From contig BPJV01000001.1 of NCBI GenBank assembly GCA_026004795.1, positions 1,093,501 to 1,157,500 on the forward strand: 64,000 nucleotides of DNA, read 5' to 3'. Within the stretch, counting starts at the first letter, position 1. Each line of letters starts with the position of its first letter. The notes beneath the pieces are model-generated. The model was not told the DNA's origin, did not search any database, and saw only the letters and a list, made by a program, of their open reading frames with translations. Both the position numbers and the translations under genes were made by a program. This DNA is from Pirellulaceae bacterium (GTDB lineage: Bacteria; Planctomycetota; Planctomycetia; Pirellulales; Pirellulaceae). Shown one piece after another: positions 31,803 through 43,108 of the stretch.

Positions 31803-31898
31803 ATGAGGCGTCGGCATTCGGTTCCACCGTGAGGGACGTCGCCGGCAAGGGCAGGAACATCACCTGGATTGGTTCGCGTGCGAGCACAGGGGGAAACA

Positions 31899-34043
31899 AT
31901 GTTTTGCGCCATCCGTCGAGGTTTGCGCTGCTGCGGCAGTTTGTTGGGGATAGGGCTACTGGTTGGTCGATGGGTGCTGGTGGTAGCACCGGCGCATGCG
32001 GAGTTGCGGGTGGGAGCGGCGAAAGTCGATATTTCTCCGACGCAACTTCCTGTGATCGTCAACGGGAGCATGCGGTCGCATACCGCCGATCGGATCGTGA
32101 CGCGCCTGTACGCCCGCGCGCTCGTCTTCGATGATGGTGCCGAGCGTCTGGGGCTGGTGGTCGTCGACAGTTGCATGATTCCTCGGGCGTTGGCGGATGA
32201 AGCCAAGCAGTTGGCGGCCGCACGAACTGGCCTGCGTCCCGAACGCATTTGCATTTCGGCCACCCATACGCATTCGGCCCCGTCAAGCATGGGGGCGTTG
32301 GGGACGGATGCCGATCCGAATTACGTACCTTTGCTGCGGCAAGGCATTGCGGATGCATTGGTTGCAGCGCAACGGCACCTTCGCCCTGCCGAGATTGGGT
32401 GGGCGTCGGTCATGGCTCCACAATTCACGGCACTGCGGCGCTGGGTATTGCGACCAGATCGCATTGCTATCGATCCATTTGGTAACGCCACGGTACGCGC
32501 TAACATGCACGTTGCTCGGGATCCCCTCAATGCGACCGGTCCGACCGGTCCGGAAGACCCGGAGTTGGCGTTGATTGCCATTCGGTCGGTGGATACGCAG
32601 CAACCGATCGCCGTGCTCGCGAACTATTCGATGCATTATTTTCAACACACTCCGATTAGCGCGGACTACTTTGGCTACTTTTGCGATGGCGTGGAGCAGC
32701 ACCTGGCCGCCCTGTTCGCTGCTCAGGCGCAGGCAGGGGAGAAGAGGGACGCCGAGCCGGTCGACAGTGAGGAGCCGGAGCTGGTGGCCATCCTGTCCCA
32801 TGGGTGCAGTGGAGATATCTGGCGCCGTGATTACATGCGTTCTGCGGCTGAAGCGGAGGGAACCATTGAACAGTATTCGTCGGCGCTGGTGCAAATCGCC
32901 GTGACCGCGCTAAAAGAAATCGACTACCAGTCCGCTGCAGATTTAGCGATGGAGGAGCGCCGGTTGGCGATGCGGTACCGCGTACCCGATCGGCAGCGCT
33001 TGGAGTGGGCTCAGCGCATCGTGGAGGAGATGGGGGAGCGACTGCCGCAGTCGCCGCCAGAAATCTATGCCCGGGAACAACTGTACTTGCACCAATGGCA
33101 AGCGACGGAAGTCGTCGTGCAAGCGATTCGGGTAGGCGAGATTGCCATCGCTACCACGCCCACCGAGACTTACGCCTTAACTGGTTTGAAAATAAAACGG
33201 CAGAGTCCATTGGAAAAAACGATGGTTATCGAACTGGCCAACGGCGGCGACGGCTATATTCCGCCACCGGAGCAGCATGTTCTGGGCGGATACAACACCT
33301 GGGCGGCGCGCACTGCCGGACTCGAGGTCACGGCCGAGCCGCGGATAGTCGCCGCTTGCCTCGACCTGTTGGAATCGGTCTGCCAAAAACCGCGTCGCCT
33401 GCCGCAAGCCGAATTGGGGCCGGCGGCGGAAGCCATTCTAGAACGTCATCCTAGAGCTTACTGGCGTCTCGAGGAATGGTCCCTTGGGCTGGCCCGTGAC
33501 GGCAGTGGTAATGGGGTGGCGGCCCATTACGAACCGGGCGTTGTGTTCTACCTCGATGGTGCCGACGATGCTCAGTACGGAAAGGACGAGAATCGTTGCC
33601 CACATTTTGCTGGTGGTCGTTTGTGCGCGGAATTTCCGCAGCCGCCGACCGATTTCACCATGGAGATTTCCATTTGGAACGGGATGCCCGTCGGTAGCCG
33701 TGAGGTGCTTGGTTGGTTCGCTTCCTCGGATTTTCCTTACTCCACGACTTCTTCCGGATGGCATCTCGGGCTTGATTCCCAGGGGCGGTTATTGCTGAAA
33801 GTGGGGAACGCTCCCCCGGTGCACGGGACGACGCCCATCCCACATTGGCAATGGCGACGCGTGCGTCTGGAGCGAACTGCGCAGCGCTATCGCGTTTTCT
33901 TGGGGCATGCGCCCACGCCGGAAATCGAGTGGGTGGCCGATTCGGTTCCGGTGCATCGGCAGGTGGCGACCTGGTTTTTTGGTGGCCGAAGCGATCGAGC
34001 AGATAACTGGGAAGGGAAGCTCGACGAAATCGTCGTGTGGTGA
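31899..34043 (+). CDS. Neutral ceramidase-like secreted protein with LamG-like C-terminal domain
   Basis: A 714-residue secreted protein. The signal peptide contains LLGIGLLVGRWVLVVAPAHA. Residues about 35-460 resemble the neutral/alkaline ceramidase N-domain: VGAAKVDISPTQLPVIVNG, VVVDSCMIPRALADEAKQLA, CISATHTHSAPSS with metal-binding His residues, and ILSHGCSGDIWRRDYM. Such domains are widespread in planctomycetes on proteins of unknown substrate. Residues about 520-714 look like a LamG/concanavalin-like domain (AYWRLEEW near its start, NWEGKLDEIVVW at its end), likely for binding a carbohydrate. AGGGGGG precedes the ATG at 31899. Confidence 0.82.
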   Translation: MFCAIRRGLRCCGSLLGIGLLVGRWVLVVAPAHAELRVGAAKVDISPTQLPVIVNGSMRSHTADRIVTRLYARALVFDDGAERLGLVVVDSCMIPRALADEAKQLAAARTGLRPERICISATHTHSAPSSMGALGTDADPNYVPLLRQGIADALVAAQRHLRPAEIGWASVMAPQFTALRRWVLRPDRIAIDPFGNATVRANMHVARDPLNATGPTGPEDPELALIAIRSVDTQQPIAVLANYSMHYFQHTPISADYFGYFCDGVEQHLAALFAAQAQAGEKRDAEPVDSEEPELVAILSHGCSGDIWRRDYMRSAAEAEGTIEQYSSALVQIAVTALKEIDYQSAADLAMEERRLAMRYRVPDRQRLEWAQRIVEEMGERLPQSPPEIYAREQLYLHQWQATEVVVQAIRVGEIAIATTPTETYALTGLKIKRQSPLEKTMVIELANGGDGYIPPPEQHVLGGYNTWAARTAGLEVTAEPRIVAACLDLLESVCQKPRRLPQAELGPAAEAILERHPRAYWRLEEWSLGLARDGSGNGVAAHYEPGVVFYLDGADDAQYGKDENRCPHFAGGRLCAEFPQPPTDFTMEISIWNGMPVGSREVLGWFASSDFPYSTTSSGWHLGLDSQGRLLLKVGNAPPVHGTTPIPHWQWRRVRLERTAQRYRVFLGHAPTPEIEWVADSVPVHRQVATWFFGGRSDRADNWEGKLDEIVVW

Positions 34044-34517
34044 CCATGTTTTTCCGGACCACCCAGGGCGGCGACTCGGTGATCCGATGCATGCTGGGGG
34101 TTGATCGATTATCACGATGCAGCGTGGCGGTTGCTTTTCTAGCGAGTCTCGCTGTCCGGCACAGGCGGCCAGCGTCAGCAGGAGCATGCGACAGAAGGGA
34201 CGTTGCGATCGTCCTATCGCCCCACTTTGTGGCGGGATTTGCGGTTTTTCCATCGCTTCTGCGAAGAGGCATGCTGGCAAACATCCTGGCCCTGCAGCCG
34301 ATGGTTCGTTTCGTGGTCGAGACGGCGCGGGAGAAGAGGGCAGGCGCCATGTTGTGCCCGTCATGGAGCGACGAACACCCCACGGACCGAGGGGGATAAG
34401 AAAGCCACGCAATCGGGTGCGTTCCTCCGTTTGTTGAGTACACTGAAAAGCAGGGAAACGCTTCACTTATAGGGCACTGAAGCAGAGTCGAATCGAATGA
34501 TTGCTCGAGGAGAAGGA
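34044..34517. other. Intergenic stretch before the DUF1549 gene
   Basis: About 470 bases without a supported gene. Overlapping reading frames on both strands are Arg/Cys-rich and lack family character. A strong ribosome site, GAGGAGAAGG, closes the stretch at about 34508-34516. Confidence 0.45.
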
Positions 34518-36188
34518 ATGTACGATCCAACGTTTTGGCAGAGGTTGGCCGTCGCGCTAATCGCGTTAGGCATCCTGGGAGGTCGTGGAGCCGATGCGGC
34601 GGACCCGCCGGAACCGGAGATTCCCCAAGTCAAGATGATCAACGCGGCCATCACGCAGCAGTGGGCCGACTACGGTCTGCGTCCTTCGCCGGTCGAGGAC
34701 GATGGCAAGTGGTGTCGCCGGGTGTACTTGGATTTGATCGGACGCATACCGACCTATGCGGAGCTGGATAGTTTCCTGCGCGACCGCGATCCCCGTAAGC
34801 GGGAAAAGCTCGTCGATCAATTGTTGGAGGACTCGCAGTACACGGAAGAGTTTGCCAGTTTTTGGGCCACGAATTGGAGCAATTTGCTGATCGGCCGCAG
34901 TGGGGGAATGGATCGCCGCTCGATGGTCTCGCGGGAGGGGATGAGCAAGTATTTGCGAGACAGTTTCGCGGTCAACAAGCCGTATGATCGCATGGTGTAC
35001 GAGTTGGTGACGGCGACCGGGGCGACCAAACCTGGTGTGGAGGGCTTCAATGGGGCGGCCAATTTTCTGATTGACAAGGTGAATGAGGAAGATGCAACCC
35101 TGGCCACTTCGGCGACGTCACGCATTTTTCTGGGGTTGCAGGTGCAGTGTACCCAGTGCCATAACCATCCCTTCAATCAGTGGAAGCAGCAAAAGTTTTG
35201 GGAATTCAATGCGTTTTTCCGGCAAACGCGTGCTTTGCGACGATTTGTTTCTGGAACGCGAGATATCGATTACGGCGAATTGGTGGATCAGGATTTTCCC
35301 GGCGAAAGCGGACGACCGGAGGAGGCGGAGATTTATTACGAGGAGCGCAATGGTTTGACCCGCGTCGCCTTTCCTGTTTTCATCGATGGCACACCCATTG
35401 GACGCAGTGGTTACGTATCGGATGTCAATCGCCGTCAGGAATTGGCCAAGTTGATGCTCCAGAGCGAGTATCTGGACAAGATGATCGTTAATCGCATGTG
35501 GGCTCATTTTCTCGGGTATGGATTTACTAAGCCGATTGACGATTTAGGGCCTCACGCCTTGGTGTCGCACCCTCAATTGCTCGACGCTTTGGGGAAAGAG
35601 GTGCGCCGGTCGAGCTATGATTTGCGGGCGCTGATGCGGTGGATCACGTTGTCCAAGCCATATCAGCTTTCTAGCCGCATTGGATCGGGCAACGAAGCGG
35701 ACGATCCGACGATTGGCGAGGTGCCCCAGTTCAGCCGCTTTTACCTGCGACAAATGTCAGCCGAGCAGCTCTATCAGTCCTTGTTGCAGGTCGGCGGGCA
35801 GGCGCGGGGGTCGCTGGCCCAACAGCAGGCGGAGCGGGATCGGTGGTTGCGACAGTTCGTGGTGGCTTTTGGTACGGACGAAGGAGACGAGGCGACGACG
35901 TTCAACGGTTCGATTCCTCAAGCGCTAATGATGATGAATGGTGATTTGGTGCGGCGGGCCATTGCGACCGATCCCGGTTCGTTCCTGTATGAGATCGCGA
36001 TGGCCAACGCCAAGATGCCGGAAAAGGTCAACTACCTGTTCATGGCAGGGGTGGCGCGACGAGCCACGGCGGACGAGCAGAAGATTGCTGGACAGTTGCT
36101 GCGTGTGCGCGGCGGTAAGCAGATCGAAGCGCTTCAGGATTTGTGGTGGGCTATTCTGAATTCCAACGAGTTTATTTTGATTCAGTGA
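34518..36188 (+). CDS. DUF1549/DUF1553 domain protein
   Basis: A 556-residue secreted protein with the planctomycete-type DUF1549 (about residues 30-230) and DUF1553 (about 290-520) domains. DUF1549 is shown by WCRRVYLDLIGRIPTYAEL, FASFWATNWSNLLIGR and QVQCTQCHNHPFNQWKQQKF, where CTQCH at about residue 212 is a CxxCH motif. DUF1553 is shown by MIVNRMWAHFLGYGFTKPID and SAEQLYQSLLQVGGQ. The signal peptide is RLAVALIALGILGGRGADA. A very strong ribosome site precedes the ATG. These proteins nearly always sit beside a DUF1501 partner, as here; their function is not established. Confidence 0.92.
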   Translation: MYDPTFWQRLAVALIALGILGGRGADAADPPEPEIPQVKMINAAITQQWADYGLRPSPVEDDGKWCRRVYLDLIGRIPTYAELDSFLRDRDPRKREKLVDQLLEDSQYTEEFASFWATNWSNLLIGRSGGMDRRSMVSREGMSKYLRDSFAVNKPYDRMVYELVTATGATKPGVEGFNGAANFLIDKVNEEDATLATSATSRIFLGLQVQCTQCHNHPFNQWKQQKFWEFNAFFRQTRALRRFVSGTRDIDYGELVDQDFPGESGRPEEAEIYYEERNGLTRVAFPVFIDGTPIGRSGYVSDVNRRQELAKLMLQSEYLDKMIVNRMWAHFLGYGFTKPIDDLGPHALVSHPQLLDALGKEVRRSSYDLRALMRWITLSKPYQLSSRIGSGNEADDPTIGEVPQFSRFYLRQMSAEQLYQSLLQVGGQARGSLAQQQAERDRWLRQFVVAFGTDEGDEATTFNGSIPQALMMMNGDLVRRAIATDPGSFLYEIAMANAKMPEKVNYLFMAGVARRATADEQKIAGQLLRVRGGKQIEALQDLWWAILNSNEFILIQ

Positions 36189-36289: not shown

Positions 36290-37567
36290 ATGCGTTGGTT
36301 ACAAAGCTCTGTTCCGGCTGGCATGAACCGCAGGCATTTCTTGCAGCACGCCGCCGGCGCCTCCGCGTTGCTGGGATCCTCTTTGGCGCTAGGACATTCT
36401 CTGCGAGTTCATGCCGATGAGATCAAACGGAATCGCAAGGCCGCCATCTTGTTGTGGATGGGGGGCGGCCCTTCGACGATCGACTTGTGGGATCTAAAGC
36501 CCGGGGCGCCCACTGGCGGGCCGTTTCGGCCGATCAGCACTAGTGGCGATGTGCAGATTTGTGAGCATCTGCCGCAGATCGCTAAGCAGATGCACAATCT
36601 GGCGATCGTGCGTTCGATGAGTACGCGTGAGGCGGACCACAACCGCGGGCGGTACTACTTGCACACTGGATATGTCCCCAATCCGAATATCGAGCATCCC
36701 GGCATCGGTTCTGTGGTCGCTCATGAATTGATGCGGGATCGGGATGATTTGGAGATTCCGCCGTTCATTTCGATTGGAGGAGCGAGCGTTGGACCGGGCT
36801 TCTTGGGCATGGCATGGGCACCGTTCACCGTCTCCAGTACCGGTCGCATCGATAACCTCGATATGCGTATTGATGACTCTCGGTTGGCTCAACGGATGAA
36901 GACGTTGGAGTTGCTAGAGACCAACTTTATCCGTCAGAATCGTGGGCCGGCGGCGGTGGACCACATGAAGGTGTTGGCCAAGACGTTCAATCTGTTGACC
37001 AGCCAGCAGATGGAGGCTTTCAAGGTGGAATTGGAACCGCAGCCGATTCGCGATCGATATGGCGATACGTCGTTCGGTCGCGGATGCTTGATGGCGCGGC
37101 GATTGGTTGAAGTCGGAGTCCCCTTTGTCGAGGTGGACTTGGGAGGCTGGGACAACCATCAAAACGTCCACAATACCTTGCAGAATCAGCGGTTGCCGGT
37201 GCTTGACCAAGCGATGAGTGCCCTAGTCGAGGATTTGGAACAGCGAGGCTTACTGCAGGACACGATGATTATTTGGATGGGCGAATTCGGTCGCACGCCG
37301 AACATCAATGCCAATGCTGGACGGGACCACTGGGCGCGGTCGTGGAGTGTTGTGTTGGGTGGAGCCGGTATCCGTGGCGGAATCGCCGTAGGTGCGACCG
37401 ACGAGGAGGGGCGGCAGGTGATTACCGAACCGTATTCTGCCGAGGACCTGATGGCCACCGTTTGCAAAGGGTTAGGCATCTCGCTGGAAACTACTTACCA
37501 AAGCAAGAATGGTCGCCCGATGAAGATCGCCAACGGCGGGAAAGTGATCGAGGAGGTGCTGGCTTAA
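36290..37567 (+). CDS. DUF1501 domain protein, Tat-exported
   Basis: A 425-residue protein with a twin-arginine signal (MNRRHFLQHAAGASALLGSS, from residue 12) and a DUF1501 domain related to alkaline phosphatase/sulfatase folds. Visible motifs are ILLWMGGGPSTIDLWDLKPG, SMSTREADHNRGRYYLHTGY, VDLGGWDNHQNVHN and IIWMGEFGRTPNINANAGRD with HWARSWSVVL. GAGGAGAT precedes the ATG. It follows its DUF1549/1553 partner by 101 bases. The pair is a hallmark of planctomycetes; the catalytic role is unknown. Confidence 0.92.
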   Translation: MRWLQSSVPAGMNRRHFLQHAAGASALLGSSLALGHSLRVHADEIKRNRKAAILLWMGGGPSTIDLWDLKPGAPTGGPFRPISTSGDVQICEHLPQIAKQMHNLAIVRSMSTREADHNRGRYYLHTGYVPNPNIEHPGIGSVVAHELMRDRDDLEIPPFISIGGASVGPGFLGMAWAPFTVSSTGRIDNLDMRIDDSRLAQRMKTLELLETNFIRQNRGPAAVDHMKVLAKTFNLLTSQQMEAFKVELEPQPIRDRYGDTSFGRGCLMARRLVEVGVPFVEVDLGGWDNHQNVHNTLQNQRLPVLDQAMSALVEDLEQRGLLQDTMIIWMGEFGRTPNINANAGRDHWARSWSVVLGGAGIRGGIAVGATDEEGRQVITEPYSAEDLMATVCKGLGISLETTYQSKNGRPMKIANGGKVIEEVLA

Positions 37568-37674: not shown

Positions 37675-38214
37675 GTGAAGTCGAAGGTTGAAGGCGCGCT
37701 ACAAGCGAGCACAGTGCATACCGAACTGGAGCTCGCGGAGCTGATCGACCGCCATCAAGTGATGGTCTGGAGGTACCTGCGCGCGCTGGGCGCCGATGCG
37801 GCTTTGGCCGACGATTTAACTCAAGACACGTTTCTCGAAGTGATCCGAAAACCGTTGACTCAGTACAGCGACTCGGCCACCGCCAGTTACCTGCGCCGGG
37901 TGGCCCACAATCTGTTCATTTCACGCCGACGACGTGAGGCGCGGATGACGGTAACGGACAACGCGGAAGCTTTTGAAGATGCCTGGATGCGATGGGCCGG
38001 CTTTGACGGAGGAAATGCTGCCATGGATGCATTGGAAGAATGCTTCGGTCGGCTCACCGAACGTGCTCAGCTGGCACTTCGTTTACGGTTTGCCGAGGAG
38101 GCGAGCCGTTCGAGCATTGCAGATGCTTTGGGAATATCCGAACACGGGGCGAAGAATTTGATGCAACGCGCCAAGGCTCAATTGCGAGACTGTGTGAAAC
38201 AAAAGATTTCATGA
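37675..38214 (+). CDS. ECF sigma factor
   Basis: A 179-residue RNA polymerase sigma factor of the extracytoplasmic-function group. Region 2 is HQVMVWRYLRALGADAALAD followed by DLTQDTFLEVI; region 4 is LTERAQLALRLRFAEEASRS followed by SIADALGISEHGAKNLMQRA. The start is GTG at 37675, closely preceded by GAGGAG. Its TGA stop overlaps the ATG of the next gene (ATGA), so the two are translationally coupled, as usual for sigma/anti-sigma pairs. Confidence 0.93.
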   Translation: MKSKVEGALQASTVHTELELAELIDRHQVMVWRYLRALGADAALADDLTQDTFLEVIRKPLTQYSDSATASYLRRVAHNLFISRRRREARMTVTDNAEAFEDAWMRWAGFDGGNAAMDALEECFGRLTERAQLALRLRFAEEASRSSIADALGISEHGAKNLMQRAKAQLRDCVKQKIS

Positions 38215-40559
38215 ACGAGAACGAGAAGCAGAACACGAGACTCTCGGATCAGGTTTTCGATTCCCTGCTGACGGAAATGCTTTCCGGCCAGCGGCCGCCC
38301 GATCTGTCGGAACGCATCATCACCGCCTGGCGACAGCAAACGGGAGTCGATGCGGCGCAGCAGGCATCCGCGGCGGCGGGGCATAGCGATGGCTTGAAAG
38401 ATGCCCACACCGCCTCCTCCGCCTCGGGCAAACAAGGGAAACTCCTTCGCGAATCGGGCAAAGGCCACGACACTGGGGACGGACTGAGGGCGTCAAGCGA
38501 ACAGGTCGTCTGTCAAAGATCGAGAACTGCTGCGGCGATTGGGCAACAGGTCAGTTTGGCGGTGCACGGGCGTCGGCGCAGTACGAGGGAGCATGTGTCG
38601 TCCAGTAGTTTTTGGATGGTGGTAGCCGCTGCCGCAATCGCTGTGGCGATCAGTGGGCCCATTTTGGTGCGACATTTTCCGCGTCCCGCTGACGAACTGC
38701 GGGCGGAAGTTGGGACGAGCCAGCGTGGGGAAAAATCGCCGGTTCCTTCACCCGGCCCGAGGCGGGAGGCGACGGCCACCGCCATCGCCGCAAGCCAAGG
38801 TAACTTGCCGGACGATGACGCGACGGCGCTCAATGTGCCGCCGGCAGCTCCTCCCGCATTTCCGCTCGGTGCCCCGAAGGCCGGGCAGGTCTCCACGGCG
38901 CAGTTGCCTACCAGTGGTGGGGGAGTTGCGGGAAGTGATGCTTTGGTGCCAGAAGCAGAGCCCTTGCCGGAGAAGGAGTTGGTGGGGCACGTCGATGCGA
39001 TGTTGGTTCAGATGTGGGAGAGCTTGGGATTGGTTCCCTCCCCCGATCTGCCGCCAGAGCAGTTCATGGCACGGGCACACCTACGTCTTCTAGGCCAGCC
39101 GGCCGATAGCCAGCTGTTGGGGCGAGTGGCCAATTTGAAGAATGCGGCCGACCATCATCGAATGGTAAGCTACTTGACGCGGCAGCCGGATTTTGTTGAT
39201 CGGCTTGCGGAGTTCTTGAGCAACGAGTTGTTGTCGGCGGCGGATAGGGCGTTGCGTGGTGAACTGGCTGAGCCGATGCGGCAAGAGATCGGCCGTGTGG
39301 TGGCTGGTGGAGATTCCTGGGGAGAGTTGATTGCCCGTTGGTTTGGTGCCTCCGCCACGTCGGGCGGCGAGGCGATTCCGCCGCTTGATGATGAAGATGA
39401 GCGGGGGTGGGCGCAAGCCTATCTGTTGCAAATTCTTGCCCAGAATGATCGACAGCGTGCGTTGGAGCGTTTGGGAGGAGTTCTTCTGGATGCCAATGTC
39501 GCTTGTGTGCGGTGCCACGATCAGCGGCATCAGTTGCCGGACATCCCTCGGCGGGAGCTTATCGATCGCCAGGACGAATATTGGGGAATGCTCGCCTTGT
39601 GGCAGGGAATTCAGTGGCAATCGAGCGATTCGCAGGCACCACGTGTCGTCGATCGCCAACAGCAGTTGCTGGCTGGCGAGGGACTACCGCCAGTCTATTT
39701 TGAACGCCCCGATGGACGGTTGCAGTTGGCCTTCCCGCAGCTGCCCGGTGGCCGCCAGTGGTCCGAAGTGGACGGCGCAGACACTCCTCGGGTGGCATTT
39801 GCTCGTTGGTTGCTGCAGTCAGGTGCGCTCGATCGGGCGGCCGTCAATCAAGCGTGGCGGTTGGTCTTTGGACGACCATTGGTGCCCATGGTCGACCAAT
39901 TGGAGCCGGCGGGATATCCGCAGCGAGTGGCGTTGCAGGAGTTTCTGGCCTCGCAGTTCCGCGCCCATGCTCGCGACTTGCGACAACTCGTGCAGTGGAT
40001 CGCTAGCAGCGAAGCGATGCAGCGAAGTCCGGCTACGGAAAGTCCACATCAAGTGCTGGTCGCATCCGAAGAACAACTGTTGCAGTGGAAATTGCAGGAG
40101 GGGGTGTTCGCCGCTGCACCGGCTCCGGGCATCGCCCCTGATCGCTCCCTGTCTGCAGTTGAAGCGCTCGCGAGTCTTGCCGATTGGATTGGTGGTGCGT
40201 CCTTATCGCCCGGGAACGTTCTGCTGGCCCAACCGGCGCCTTTACCATCTGCAGATAAGAAACGCCGTACGGGGAGCAGGCCGCAGGAACCGTCTTCCTC
40301 CAGGTCCCAGCAGCCGACGATCAACTTCTACATCCATCGTCAGGTTCCAACGCCAGCCGAGAAAGAATTCGTAAGACGACTGGTGGCCAATGAGCGTCTG
40401 AGTTGGGAACAACGGGTTGAGCATGTGATCGGTTTGAGCGATACGACCGTGGATCCGGAAAAAATTCAGCAACTGGCCGCGCAGCTGTTGCGCAAACGAG
40501 AGAACAACATGGAAGAGACACTCTACGATCTTCTGTGGGCGATCAAGCAGGCACGGTGA
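38211..40559 (+). CDS. Membrane anti-sigma-like protein fused to DUF1549/DUF1553 domains
   Basis: A 782-residue protein whose start overlaps the sigma stop by four bases. Residues 1-140 are a polar, presumably cytoplasmic region starting with SDQVFDSLLTEMLSGQRPPD, followed by one transmembrane helix (SFWMVVAAAAIAVAISGPIL, about residues 135-156). The long outer part contains a Pro/Ala linker, then a degenerate DUF1549-like part with ACVRCHDQRH (CxxCH near residue 434), and a DUF1553-like part (RAAVNQAWRLVFGRPLVPMV). The layout suggests an anti-sigma factor that senses through a DUF1549-type domain outside the membrane. No zinc-binding anti-sigma motif is seen, so that role rests on coupling and topology. 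Confidence 0.75.
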   Translation: MNENEKQNTRLSDQVFDSLLTEMLSGQRPPDLSERIITAWRQQTGVDAAQQASAAAGHSDGLKDAHTASSASGKQGKLLRESGKGHDTGDGLRASSEQVVCQRSRTAAAIGQQVSLAVHGRRRSTREHVSSSSFWMVVAAAAIAVAISGPILVRHFPRPADELRAEVGTSQRGEKSPVPSPGPRREATATAIAASQGNLPDDDATALNVPPAAPPAFPLGAPKAGQVSTAQLPTSGGGVAGSDALVPEAEPLPEKELVGHVDAMLVQMWESLGLVPSPDLPPEQFMARAHLRLLGQPADSQLLGRVANLKNAADHHRMVSYLTRQPDFVDRLAEFLSNELLSAADRALRGELAEPMRQEIGRVVAGGDSWGELIARWFGASATSGGEAIPPLDDEDERGWAQAYLLQILAQNDRQRALERLGGVLLDANVACVRCHDQRHQLPDIPRRELIDRQDEYWGMLALWQGIQWQSSDSQAPRVVDRQQQLLAGEGLPPVYFERPDGRLQLAFPQLPGGRQWSEVDGADTPRVAFARWLLQSGALDRAAVNQAWRLVFGRPLVPMVDQLEPAGYPQRVALQEFLASQFRAHARDLRQLVQWIASSEAMQRSPATESPHQVLVASEEQLLQWKLQEGVFAAAPAPGIAPDRSLSAVEALASLADWIGGASLSPGNVLLAQPAPLPSADKKRRTGSRPQEPSSSRSQQPTINFYIHRQVPTPAEKEFVRRLVANERLSWEQRVEHVIGLSDTTVDPEKIQQLAAQLLRKRENNMEETLYDLLWAIKQAR

Positions 40560-40858: not shown

Positions 40859-40876
40859 TCACTGGTTGGCTTCGAT
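40839..40876 (-). repeat. Perfect 19-bp tandem duplication across a stop codon
   Basis: CTCACTGGTTGGCTTCGAT occurs twice in direct succession at 40839-40857 and 40858-40876. On the minus strand the second copy encodes the last residues (IEANQ) and the TGA stop of the anti-sigma gene; the first repeats this just past the stop. Confidence 0.9.
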
Positions 40877-42526
40877 CAACACGATCCACCGCTGATGGTT
40901 TTTTGCCTGGTCAACTGGTTCCGCGAGAACGATCCATGGCGCGTTGGCGGCTGCTGGCGAGCCCGATTTCTCCGGAGGCTCCGGAGGGTCGTCGACGTTG
41001 TTCGACGGCGTCAACAGTTCAAAGATCTCATGCGCTTGTTGCTGCGAAACGAGCAGCAAAATGATCTTGGGTAGACGATTCTCGGGGGGCATGGCGGAAC
41101 TGGCGTGTGGTTCGTCTGCGGCCTCGTCGGGCAGCGCATCACTGGGAGCAGAGGGAGAGACGAGTTGGAGCGGCCCGAACGTGGCGACATCCTGTTGAAG
41201 ATCGGGATACCTATTCTGAATGGTGGTGAGAACCGAATCCATGTCGGTTTCTTTCACTGCCAAGATGGCGATCGGCGTGATAGCGGCATTGAGGGCGGAT
41301 GCCGTCGATTCATCGCCGTAGTCGGATTGCGGCGAGTCTGCCGCCTTCTGGTCTCGACGTGATGCCGTGCCTTCAGTGGTAAGTATGGGGCGGCCGTAGA
41401 GCTGGCTTACTTCCATCAGGGCGGCCCGGCGTTCCTCTTCGCTCCACTGGCTATTTACAAAAATTCGTATGTTCGACGTCAGCGCGGGCGTAGGTGGTGG
41501 GGGACGTAATTCGGTTGCTCCTCGCGCTCGCGAAGATATTCCAGAGGAAGGTGTTGCCGTATTGGACGGCAAACTTTCCGCGGCTGGGGATCGTTCGGCA
41601 CGGGAAGGAGCAGCCTGCGTCGCGCGGCTTCGTCGTTCGACGCTGCCGCCCGCTTTGGCTTGCGCCGCAGTAGCAGCGGAGGGAGGGGCCGCCGCCAATC
41701 CCGCGTCTCGGCCGAGCTCCTGAGAGAGGGGGAGCGGTGTTTGAGCGGGCGACGTGCCATGATCGCTGCTGGCCGTGATCTCGGCCAGGCTGCCGAACTG
41801 CGCTCCTTCAGCGCTTTGTTCTGGAAAAGCTGCGTCCATGCTTCCGGACGCTGAGGCGGACAATCGAGCCGATGAGGAGTCACCGGGCGGCGAAGATGGC
41901 GATCTGGGCACCGCAGGCTCGTTGCCGACCGAGTCGGGAGGCGCGTCGATGAACGGACGAGCATAGGGAGAGCCATCCGCCGACTGATGCTCTTCCAGCG
42001 CAACATTTGGTAAATCGCCGCTGGATGGTTGCGCATTCTCTTGACGAGCCGTCTGGTAGGACGGGCTCCAAGTCGGTATCCAGGTGATGCCGATGCCCAC
42101 AGCAAGCAATACAGCAGCCGCCACCGCGAGAAACGCCCACAATCTTTTCTGCCGACGGGCCTTGAGCAGTGCAGCCGTGGGCATGGAGGATGGCCCAGGC
42201 GTTCGCCAAGAGGTGGGGGAGGGCGCGGTTGGCCCCGTGGCATGATCGTCAGCAGAGGACTCGGCGGCATCGAGCGAGTCGTCCCTTACGGACGAGGGCC
42301 AGACGATCGGCTTGGTATCACTGGGCCATGGTGGTAGTTGAGCAACGAGCTTCCGCGCCCGCTGCAGCTCCGCAACGGTGGCCTGGGCCTTCGGATCCGT
42401 GGCCAACCACTGTTCGACTTGTTGCCGTTGTTCCGCCGTCAATTCGTTGTCCACATAGGCAGACAGCCAATCCTCGGGAATCGGCTCGTGTGGGCTGGAT
42501 TCGGCGGTGTTGTGTTCGTTTGTCAT
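40859..42526 (-). CDS. Anti-sigma factor-like membrane protein
   Basis: A 555-residue protein encoded three bases after an ECF sigma gene. The N-terminal PEDWLSAYVDNELTAEQRQQ and the following helix resemble the anti-sigma N-domain (zf-HC2/RskA type) but lack the His-Cys-Cys zinc ligands. A transmembrane helix (LWAFLAVAAAVLLAVGIGIT) lies at about residues 129-150. The outer part is long and low in complexity (Ser/Ala/Pro/Glu), ending in a more ordered region (NIRIFVNSQWSEEERRAALM). It probably holds the sigma factor at the membrane until a signal arrives. The signal is not evident. Confidence 0.8.
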   Translation of the reverse strand: MTNEHNTAESSPHEPIPEDWLSAYVDNELTAEQRQQVEQWLATDPKAQATVAELQRARKLVAQLPPWPSDTKPIVWPSSVRDDSLDAAESSADDHATGPTAPSPTSWRTPGPSSMPTAALLKARRQKRLWAFLAVAAAVLLAVGIGITWIPTWSPSYQTARQENAQPSSGDLPNVALEEHQSADGSPYARPFIDAPPDSVGNEPAVPRSPSSPPGDSSSARLSASASGSMDAAFPEQSAEGAQFGSLAEITASSDHGTSPAQTPLPLSQELGRDAGLAAAPPSAATAAQAKAGGSVERRSRATQAAPSRAERSPAAESLPSNTATPSSGISSRARGATELRPPPPTPALTSNIRIFVNSQWSEEERRAALMEVSQLYGRPILTTEGTASRRDQKAADSPQSDYGDESTASALNAAITPIAILAVKETDMDSVLTTIQNRYPDLQQDVATFGPLQLVSPSAPSDALPDEAADEPHASSAMPPENRLPKIILLLVSQQQAHEIFELLTPSNNVDDPPEPPEKSGSPAAANAPWIVLAEPVDQAKNHQRWIVLIEANQ

Positions 42527-42529
42527 CGT

Positions 42530-43108
42530 CTACCAACCCATGGCATCCAGCTTCGCTTCCAAGATCGATTTAAGCTCCAAGCGGGCACGATGAAGTCGGC
42601 TACGCACCGTACCGATCGGCAGCTCGAGCATTTCGGCGATCGTTTCGTAGTCATGGCCATCGAAATCACGCAACAGGAGCACCGTGCGCCGCTCTTCATC
42701 CAACATCTGCACGGCCTCGCGTACGTACTGTTGTGTTTCGGTAAGCTCCACGAACTCGTGGGGATCGGACGAAGCGCCGCATTGTTCCAGGGCAACCTCG
42801 ACATCGGACCGCTGATGGGTGTTTTCCATGCGTTTTTTTCGACGATAGCTGATCAGTAAATTCATGGCGATCCGCACTAGCCACGTGTAGAATCCTGCTC
42901 GGCCGTTGTAGGTGTGAAGTTTCTCGTAGGCGCGTGTAAAAGTATCTTGCGCCAAGTCTTCGGCCAGCGCTCTATCGTGACAGGCATGCCACAGCAATCC
43001 CAGTAGGCGCTGTTGATAGCGTTCTACCAGCGCGGCGAAAGCGGCGGCGTCCCCGGCTTTCGTCCGTTCGATGGCTTGGTTATCGTCAGCCGACATCGAT
43101 TGCTTCAC
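42530..43108 (-). CDS. ECF sigma factor, SigW/RpoE-like
   Basis: A 192-residue ECF sigma factor. Region 2 is LLGLLWHACHDRALAEDLAQ with DTFTRAYEKLHTYNGRAGFY; region 4 is VLLLRDFDGHDYETIAEMLE followed by LPIGTVRSRLHRARLELKSI. The start is GTG at 43108, or ATG at 43096; neither has a good Shine-Dalgarno. An ECF-type promoter lies 22 bases upstream, which suggests autoregulation. The anti-sigma gene follows three bases after the stop. Confidence 0.93.
   Translation of the reverse strand: MKQSMSADDNQAIERTKAGDAAAFAALVERYQQRLLGLLWHACHDRALAEDLAQDTFTRAYEKLHTYNGRAGFYTWLVRIAMNLLISYRRKKRMENTHQRSDVEVALEQCGASSDPHEFVELTETQQYVREAVQMLDEERRTVLLLRDFDGHDYETIAEMLELPIGTVRSRLHRARLELKSILEAKLDAMGW

Follow-up and report, generated by a model that had tools for sequence, protein, structure and literature searches.

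A predicted membrane regulator of an extracytoplasmic function (ECF) sigma factor with a PSCyt2-PSD1 outer domain in an operon of a Pirellulaceae bacterium

Pairs of an ECF sigma factor and a membrane anti-sigma factor were described as coupled genes, the regulator having a short N-terminus, one transmembrane helix and a variable outer sensor, and class I anti-sigma factors (ASDI) are defined by a four-helix N-terminal domain that contacts sigma4 and sigma2 (PMC7406223). Here, we describe an operon on a stretch of 64,000 nucleotides from a Pirellulaceae bacterium (GenBank assembly GCA_026004795.1, contig BPJV01000001.1, positions 1,093,501 to 1,157,500 of the forward strand), which is referred to as the window and comes from the order Pirellulales. 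Judged from the sequence, the gene at positions 38211-40559 probably encodes a membrane regulator of the ECF sigma factor encoded directly before it, with a PSCyt2-PSD1 (DUF1549/DUF1553) domain as outer sensor, in an operon driven from a promoter-like dyad. The locus resembles the described pairs in gene coupling and protein layout. In contrast to the class I pairs, the N-terminus of the window protein contains no Hx3Cx2C motif within its first 134 residues and has no match in Pfam or NCBIfam, and its sensor is a PSCyt2-PSD1 domain. In analogy to FecI-FecR, the same N-terminal module heads FecR-domain proteins behind sigma factors of the same ECF subfamily in four loci (L167, L177, L178, L182); unlike FecR, the window protein has no FecR domain (PF04773, Pfam, up to E 0.1), and Pfam identified no TonB-dependent transducer among the four operon genes.

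The pairing of an ECF sigma factor with a PSCyt2 protein is not new as such, because it was suggested for Rhodopirellula baltica, in which the ECF sigma factor RB10049 was supposed to regulate RB10051, a protein with PSC2 and PSD1 domains (Studholme et al., 2004, cited in PMC2754498), and RB10049 was up-regulated under all three stresses tested (PMC2754498). As in the window, a PSC2-PSD1 gene is there put under an ECF gene of neighbouring number; the available text of PMC2754498 does not call RB10051 an anti-sigma factor and names no N-terminal module in it, and the likeness is one of description. Gene pairs of PSCyt2-PSD1 and DUF1501 with the same domain content and adjacency were reported from the Planctomycetes-Verrucomicrobia-Chlamydiae group, and the available text of that survey states that nothing is known of the functions of these proteins (PMC5615132). 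Such ordinary pairs differ from the window operon in having no sigma gene directly upstream. In the literature searched, which did not cover key papers on ECF classification and on planctomycetes, so that an earlier description is possible, no PSCyt2-PSD1 anti-sigma sensor, no such module or dyad and no repeated fusion was found. Apparently new here is a sigma-side module that is absent from Pfam and NCBIfam, together with an enzyme-derived sensor in a system of ECF sigma factor and membrane regulator.

Architecture of the operon and of the membrane protein

The operon reads on the plus strand in the order free PSCyt2-PSD1, DUF1501, ECF sigma factor and fused regulator, and contains the following features:

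34435..34462, plus strand: promoter-like dyad TGAGTAC-N17-CGCT, ending 34 nucleotides 5' of the ATG of the free PSCyt2-PSD1 gene
34497..36188, plus strand: free PSCyt2-PSD1 (DUF1549/DUF1553) protein, 563 residues, motif CTQCHNHP (Pfam, 169 and 99.2 bits)
36290..37567, plus strand: DUF1501 protein, 425 residues, Tat-like signal (Pfam, 357.7 bits)
37675..38214, plus strand: ECF sigma factor, 179 residues, GTG start (Pfam and NCBIfam superfamily matches)
38211..40559, plus strand: predicted membrane sigma regulator with outer PSCyt2-PSD1 domain, 782 residues (overlap with the sigma gene; Pfam domains)
38238..38345, plus strand: N-terminal module of the regulator, residues 10-45 (alignments; predicted helices 4-24 and 33-44 flank GQRPPDL)
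38613..38669, plus strand: predicted transmembrane helix, residues 135-153 (hydropathy 2.27; helix in the structure model)
38991..39545, plus strand: PSCyt2 part of the outer domain, residues 261-445 (Pfam, 36.4 bits, cut-off 29.8)
39504..39518, plus strand: CxxCH motif (CVRCH), residues 432-436, the second His of CxxCHxH being Gln438
39789..40082, plus strand: PSD1 part of the outer domain, residues 527-624 (Pfam, 44 bits, cut-off 28.5)

The regulator gene is an unbroken open reading frame of 782 codons with exact coordinates, and its ATG overlaps the TGA of the ECF gene (ATGA), in agreement with the original prediction, made from the sequence alone, that the two genes are translationally coupled. 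The free DUF1549/1553 and DUF1501 genes, which had likewise been postulated upstream, were recovered there by Pfam. The DUF1501 protein shows a mean column identity of 69% with 25 cassette homologues, and its Tat-signal match scores below the Pfam cut-off. Compared with the free protein, the outer domain of the regulator is a strongly diverged copy, as is seen from its far lower Pfam scores, which nevertheless lie above the gathering scores for both PSCyt2 and PSD1.

Hydropathy analysis revealed residues 135-153 as the only strongly hydrophobic stretch of the regulator (mean 2.27; next best elsewhere 1.15), which bears out the earlier view of a polar N-terminus followed by one transmembrane helix. 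The structure model has a predicted local distance difference test score (pLDDT) of 68.5 overall, with a helix at the transmembrane position (block pLDDT 89 for residues 131-140), a linker of low confidence (152-241) and a PSCyt2-PSD1 fold from ~254 to 781; the helices 4-24, 33-44 and 46-56 of the N-terminus are modelled with low to modest confidence. Within 20 residues on either side of the transmembrane helix there are four basic residues per side, and one acidic residue before and three after it, which gives weak support for an N-terminus located inside. This position is predicted mainly because the module is linked to a sigma factor. Of the CxxCH-containing DUF1549/1553-like domain that had been placed outside the membrane, the domain assignment and the motif thus stood; its outer position has weak support from the charges. 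One cytochrome c assembly protein match was found in the window genome.

N-terminal module, sigma subfamily and promoter-like dyad

Alignment of the cassette regulators yields the consensus xxLxExLxGxxPPDLxxRI for module residues 10-45. In a search of 60 genomes, a set that includes the window's own genome here and below, the module was found at E<=3.7e-4 in 42 open reading frames (43 places), and a sigma factor of one subfamily is encoded directly 5' of 42/42 of them; in L117 the gap between the two is 865 nucleotides, and the frame in L120 ends at the contig end. Four of the 42 (L111, L112, L117, L118) carry a YfbK-type vWA region instead of PSCyt2. A widened module profile applied to 294 genomes of the phylum, with up to 23 candidates scored per genome, so that absences are not firm, gave 91 places in 33 genomes, corresponding to 90 candidate frames, since two places fall into one frame; two of the 90 were already among the 42. 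A sigma factor of the same subfamily lies directly upstream of 89/90 (30/30, 40/40 and 19/20 in the three batches), and the one remaining candidate, L363 (E 8.8e-4), has no open frame. A survey of fused and unfused DUF1549 proteins for coupling with ECF genes, which had been suggested earlier, thus did not refute the prediction: the module-bearing frames examined are sigma-linked, and the free PSCyt2 proteins are not, as expected.

The outer domains attached to the module are diverse. Among the first 30 phylum loci, many of whose frames are cut short by the ends of the fetched stretch, three have PSCyt2, nine vWA/YfbK or the N-terminal vWF_A part, four FecR, and one each an EF-hand, HEAT repeats and a TPR match below cut-off, with no Pfam family in the remaining eleven. 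On a tree of 71 sigma factors the sensor types are strongly clustered (6 changes compared to 28.6 in shuffles). The linkage of module and sigma factor and the clustering of sensor types are what would be expected of a dedicated sigma-binding module with exchangeable sensors, and a regulatory role of the module is well supported by the linkage. The mean mutual information between sigma and module, calculated for 109 pairs, is 0.0709 compared to 0.0670 ± 0.0006 in within-cluster shuffles; this covariation analysis adds co-inheritance only. Linkage and co-inheritance make the regulator a candidate anti-sigma factor. If confirmed, the module would constitute an anti-sigma domain absent from Pfam and NCBIfam and would predict the sensors (vWA, FecR, PSCyt2) for a whole ECF subfamily.

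The window sigma factor matches Sigma70_r2 (8.9e-12) and Sigma70_r4_2 (4.2e-9), both above the Pfam cut-off, and TIGR02937 (sigma70-ECF superfamily; 71.2 bits, cut-off 42.9), and it falls short of TIGR02989 (Sig-70_gvs1; 79.8 bits, curated cut-off 124.55). It is the only match to the subfamily profile in its own genome at E<=1e-20 (58 candidates scored). The subfamily is sharply bounded, with 45 places in 43/60 genomes at E<=3.4e-41 and the next match at 1e-25. At the remaining sigma places (G024, G044) a module-like N-terminus of diverged spelling follows, and behind the weaker sigma factors of L300-L303 (E 6e-27 to 2e-28) the N-termini are of other kinds.

A search in which all dyads in the 300-nucleotide upstream regions were counted brought out a pair of AGTAC and CGYT for both the free PSCyt2 genes and the sigma genes. 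The strict form, TGAGTAC-N16/17-CGYT, is present in 14/27 upstream regions of free PSCyt2 genes and in 15/46 of sigma genes; with two positions relaxed these counts rise to 21/27 and 17/46, with means of 0.04 and 0.05 in shuffles and 0 on the reverse strand. One or the other gene is preceded by the relaxed dyad in 32/46 loci, a number that counts both L072 and L190 from the same genome. The window contains a single match (34435..34462; 0.06 expected) and none before its sigma gene, and in its genome the relaxed dyad precedes 1/29 other PSCyt2 genes. From the dyad shared by free PSCyt2 and sigma genes it is concluded that the sigma factor probably drives the operon of PSCyt2, DUF1501, sigma and regulator, which would probably be autoregulated. 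The dyad was not found at the Planctomycetales cassettes described below, which have other sigma factors. As separate observations, the dyad occurs 44 nucleotides before another PSCyt2 gene at G000 C2:568553 (L147, L266) and 281 nucleotides before another DUF1501 gene at G000 C2:745182 (L269); these are suggestive of further targets, though the pattern is near background.

Recurrence of the fusion, divergence of the outer domain and competing explanations

With the regulator as query, matches were obtained in 59/60 genomes, many of them ordinary PSCyt2 proteins; up to 17 candidates per genome were scored, so that absences are not firm. To analyse conservation, the best-matching place was fetched from 40 other genomes, one per genome. 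In 29/40 of these loci, as in the window, an ECF sigma gene is followed directly by a gene for a PSCyt2-PSD1 protein, and all 30 such proteins (window counted) have CxxCH and an N-terminal hydrophobic stretch. The commonest order, layout A, is that of the window, PSCyt2, DUF1501, sigma and fused regulator. In layout B (L066, L067, L068, L072, L074, L110, L113) the order is sigma, fused regulator and DUF1501, with no cassette-type free PSCyt2; L068 is counted here though a more distant PSCyt2-DUF1501 pair lies upstream. Four loci (L059, L063, L116, L119) have neither layout, and DUF1501 is not adjacent. As a control, the cassette sigma profile detected an ECF gene directly upstream in 0/30 other PSCyt2 regions of the window genome, the nearest being ~1.5 kb away, and a DUF1501 gene is present in 26/30 of these regions; the cassette is thus beyond chance, given 29/40 related loci compared to 0/30 control regions.

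The cassette DUF1501 protein was also used in a scan of named genomes, from which the best 80 loci of a longer list were considered. Six of them (L183-L185, L187, L188, L190) carry the window-type sigma factor. Four others (L192, L194, L195 and L196, from Planctomycetaceae, Fuerstiella, Schlesneria and Planctomyces) have the same order of PSCyt2, DUF1501, sigma and fused PSCyt2 with another sigma factor, and in L193 the stretch ends after the sigma gene. Schlesneria and Fuerstiella belong to the Planctomycetales. The four Planctomycetales cassette sigma factors examined all reach TIGR02989 (145.4-165.6 bits; cut-off 124.55), and the N-termini of the fused proteins are a different module. At the named DUF1501 loci L197-L262 the cassette profile found no ECF gene directly upstream of PSCyt2 in 65/66, L228 (described below) being the exception.

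In the tree, fused domains from Planctomycetales are closer relatives of free copies from the same order than of fused domains from Pirellulales. For 30 chosen rows, leaving out the fast-evolving rows of the window's genus, the approximately unbiased (AU) test rejected one clade of all fused domains (p-AU 3.9e-7). When only the Pirellulales fused domains were held together, the test did not reject a single clade (p-AU 0.17), and a separate origin of L074, L110 and L113 is for this reason not claimed. Because the common clade is rejected and both sigma subfamily and N-terminus differ, PSCyt2 appears to have acquired sigma-coupled N-termini on two or more occasions, unless the outer domain was homogenised by gene conversion between neighbours.

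The fused domain evolves faster than the free one (path from the window to L040 of 2.02 compared to 0.17), and its conserved residues are lost unequally. CxxCH is kept in 45/45 fused rows (44 distinct). The second His of CxxCHxH, present in 49/51 aligned free proteins, is kept in 7/7 fused proteins of layout B, 3/4 of the Planctomycetales and 8/29 of layout A, and in 1/13 of the window's genus. The difference between layouts B and A has a Fisher p of 7.7e-4, which is a guide only as the rows are related. For these counts L190 was dropped (same genome as L072), the four loci of neither layout were kept apart (2/4 keep the His), and L044, L045 and L051, whose free gene lies beyond the contig end, were presumed to be of layout A. 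The decay argues that the sensor in the window's genus no longer performs the reaction of the pair; it may still bind the ligand of the pair or the DUF1501 partner.

According to the proposed mechanism, the fused protein would regulate, as an anti-sigma or FecR-type protein, the ECF sigma factor whose gene precedes its own. Its N-terminal ~45 residues would lie in the cytoplasm as a module that binds this sigma subfamily and holds the sigma factor at the membrane. One helix would cross the membrane and the outer PSCyt2-PSD1 domain would respond to a ligand, to redox or haem state, or to being occupied by its partner DUF1501. The signal would free the sigma factor, most simply via proteolysis of the regulator, and the freed sigma factor would recognise TGAGTAC-N16/17-CGYT and transcribe the genes of free PSCyt2, DUF1501, sigma and regulator. 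The output would be more of the PSCyt2-DUF1501 pair and of its own regulator, the sensor being a paralogue of the PSCyt2 of the pair. In the window's genus, the sensor copy would have decayed to a dedicated sensor; in operons that lack a cassette-type free PSCyt2, the motif of the regulator is complete, and the one protein may serve both as enzyme and as sensor.

Several observations weigh against this model. Neither Pfam nor NCBIfam gave a match of the window module to a known anti-sigma family, the flanking charges hardly favour either topology, and no site-level covariation of sigma and module was detected among the 109 pairs (maximum 0.160 compared to 0.162 ± 0.016 in shuffles). The relaxed dyad is missing in 14/46 loci, including four of the vWA type and five of the window's genus, in three of which the upstream region of the free gene is not in view. 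Genome-wide the dyad is near background, with 13 matches in the window genome compared to 7 for the pattern read backwards, and a stricter form gave 21 matches over 15 genomes of the genus compared to 19 backwards; five of the 21 belong to the cassette, and no PSCyt2 or DUF1501 gene elsewhere is preceded by one. As these counts are close to the backwards control, they were rejected as support for a regulon wider than the operon. That the window's genus has mostly lost the second His counts against sensing by the same chemistry as that of the pair. The original prediction suggested that the ECF system, through an anti-sigma-like protein, senses the same substrate or redox state on which the DUF1549-DUF1501 pair acts; its regulatory half gained support from the linkage of the module (42/42 and 89/90) and from the four loci with FecR, a known type of sigma regulator, and the tie of the ECF system to the pair from the shared dyad, the conserved operon and the recurrence of the fusion in another order, next to a different sigma subfamily.

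As the module also stands before FecR domains, the chief alternative is a FecR-like positive role, in which the module is a chaperone that the sigma factor needs for activity and that is freed by proteolysis. The N-terminal fragment of FecR activates FecI. The FecR-type sigma factors, encoded with the four module-bearing FecR proteins, form one clade within the subfamily tree (support 99), and FecR was reported to be cleaved by RseP (PMC8144685). FecR itself is absent from the window protein, however, and we consider activation possible but rather unlikely. About equally unlikely, in our estimate, is a homeostatic circuit, in which the sensor reads DUF1501 occupancy, PSCyt2 apoprotein or haem supply instead of an environmental substrate: the sensor is a paralogue of the usual partner of DUF1501, DUF1501 is part of the operon in both gene orders, and CxxCH, unlike other residues, does not drift in any of the 45 fused rows, but DUF1501 is not adjacent in L059, L063, L116 and L119. 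A plain PSCyt2 enzyme anchored in the membrane and working with DUF1501, with a non-regulatory N-terminus and the sigma gene as a mere neighbour, would fit the full CxxCHxH in 7/7 fused proteins that are the only cassette PSCyt2 beside DUF1501. We regard this as improbable, as the module is common to vWA, FecR and other outer domains with the same sigma subfamily each time, and as the window's genus loses enzyme-like residues and keeps the module.

Beyond the membrane-regulator model, we put forward tentatively, as a reading that may well prove wrong, that PSCyt2-PSD1 was repeatedly converted into the sensor of a sigma regulator, as a trigger enzyme that decays to a CxxCH sensor, and that the PPDL module is a new anti-sigma family. 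It would imply that at least two separate orders arrived at the same operon position with different sigma and N-terminal modules, and that the trigger enzyme, still complete in its motif wherever it has no second copy beside it, decays once a free copy is present. Gene conversion between neighbours would instead explain the likeness of free and fused domains within each order with a fusion that arose once; free and fused copies lie within a few kb, and in the tree those fused in L074, L110 and L113 fall among free copies. This is doubtful, since converting the outer domain would not account for the further differences between the orders, in sigma subfamily and in N-terminal module. A dedicated sigma/sensor operon with a predicted promoter offers a genetic route to the inducing condition and hence to the function of PSCyt2-DUF1501.

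Fold of the PSCyt2-PSD1 and DUF1501 proteins and further observations

By sequence, no credible solved relative was identified for the free PSCyt2 protein (best E 0.21) and none for DUF1501. The model of the free PSCyt2-PSD1 protein (pLDDT 90.1) had no Foldseek match at E<=0.001, and a second structural comparison returned mainly phycobilisome-linker domains with Z up to 5.7 over ~110-120 residues, a range commonly met; a new fold is not claimed. The phycobilisome-linker likeness concerns the C-terminal part of the model (residues ~420-563), and in one relative PF00427 is matched weakly, below threshold, in another part of the protein. In the frame L116:6110-8524, the PSD1 region shows a weak DUF1800 match (E 0.02). 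Elsewhere among bacteria, DUF1501 genes are paired with DUF1800 genes (PMC5122149), so that in planctomycetes the place of DUF1800 may be taken by PSCyt2-PSD1.

Behind other ECF genes, the proteins of L192, L194-L196 and L300-L302 have N-termini of the pattern 'L..E.L...RL...L..sP..R..y..yl..h/e', in which, for the four Planctomycetales proteins, Pfam names no domain; they are possibly a second family of planctomycete sigma regulators. Outside the Planctomycetota, an Opitutae metagenome-assembled genome (L228:1014-4727) has an ECF-like gene 717 nucleotides upstream of a 787-residue PSCyt2 protein, perhaps another, looser association of ECF and PSCyt2. Three PSCyt2-DUF1501 pairs at G000 C8:241841, C12:120759 and C15:33590 (L136, L137, L138) have identical match scores and frame lengths and lie near contig ends; the segment is repeated, and is perhaps mobile or mis-assembled. 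Just 5' of the operon, the N-terminus of the protein encoded at 31869-34043 on the plus strand is neutral-ceramidase-like (PF04734, 50.8 bits). Following the operon, 40859-43108 on the minus strand holds a second ECF/anti-sigma pair, in which the sigma factor (42530-43108, minus strand, 192 residues; a weaker match, 4e-15, to the cassette sigma profile) is followed by a protein of 555 residues whose N-terminus resembles zf-HC2, scoring just under the cut-off, and which has weak anti-sigma matches.

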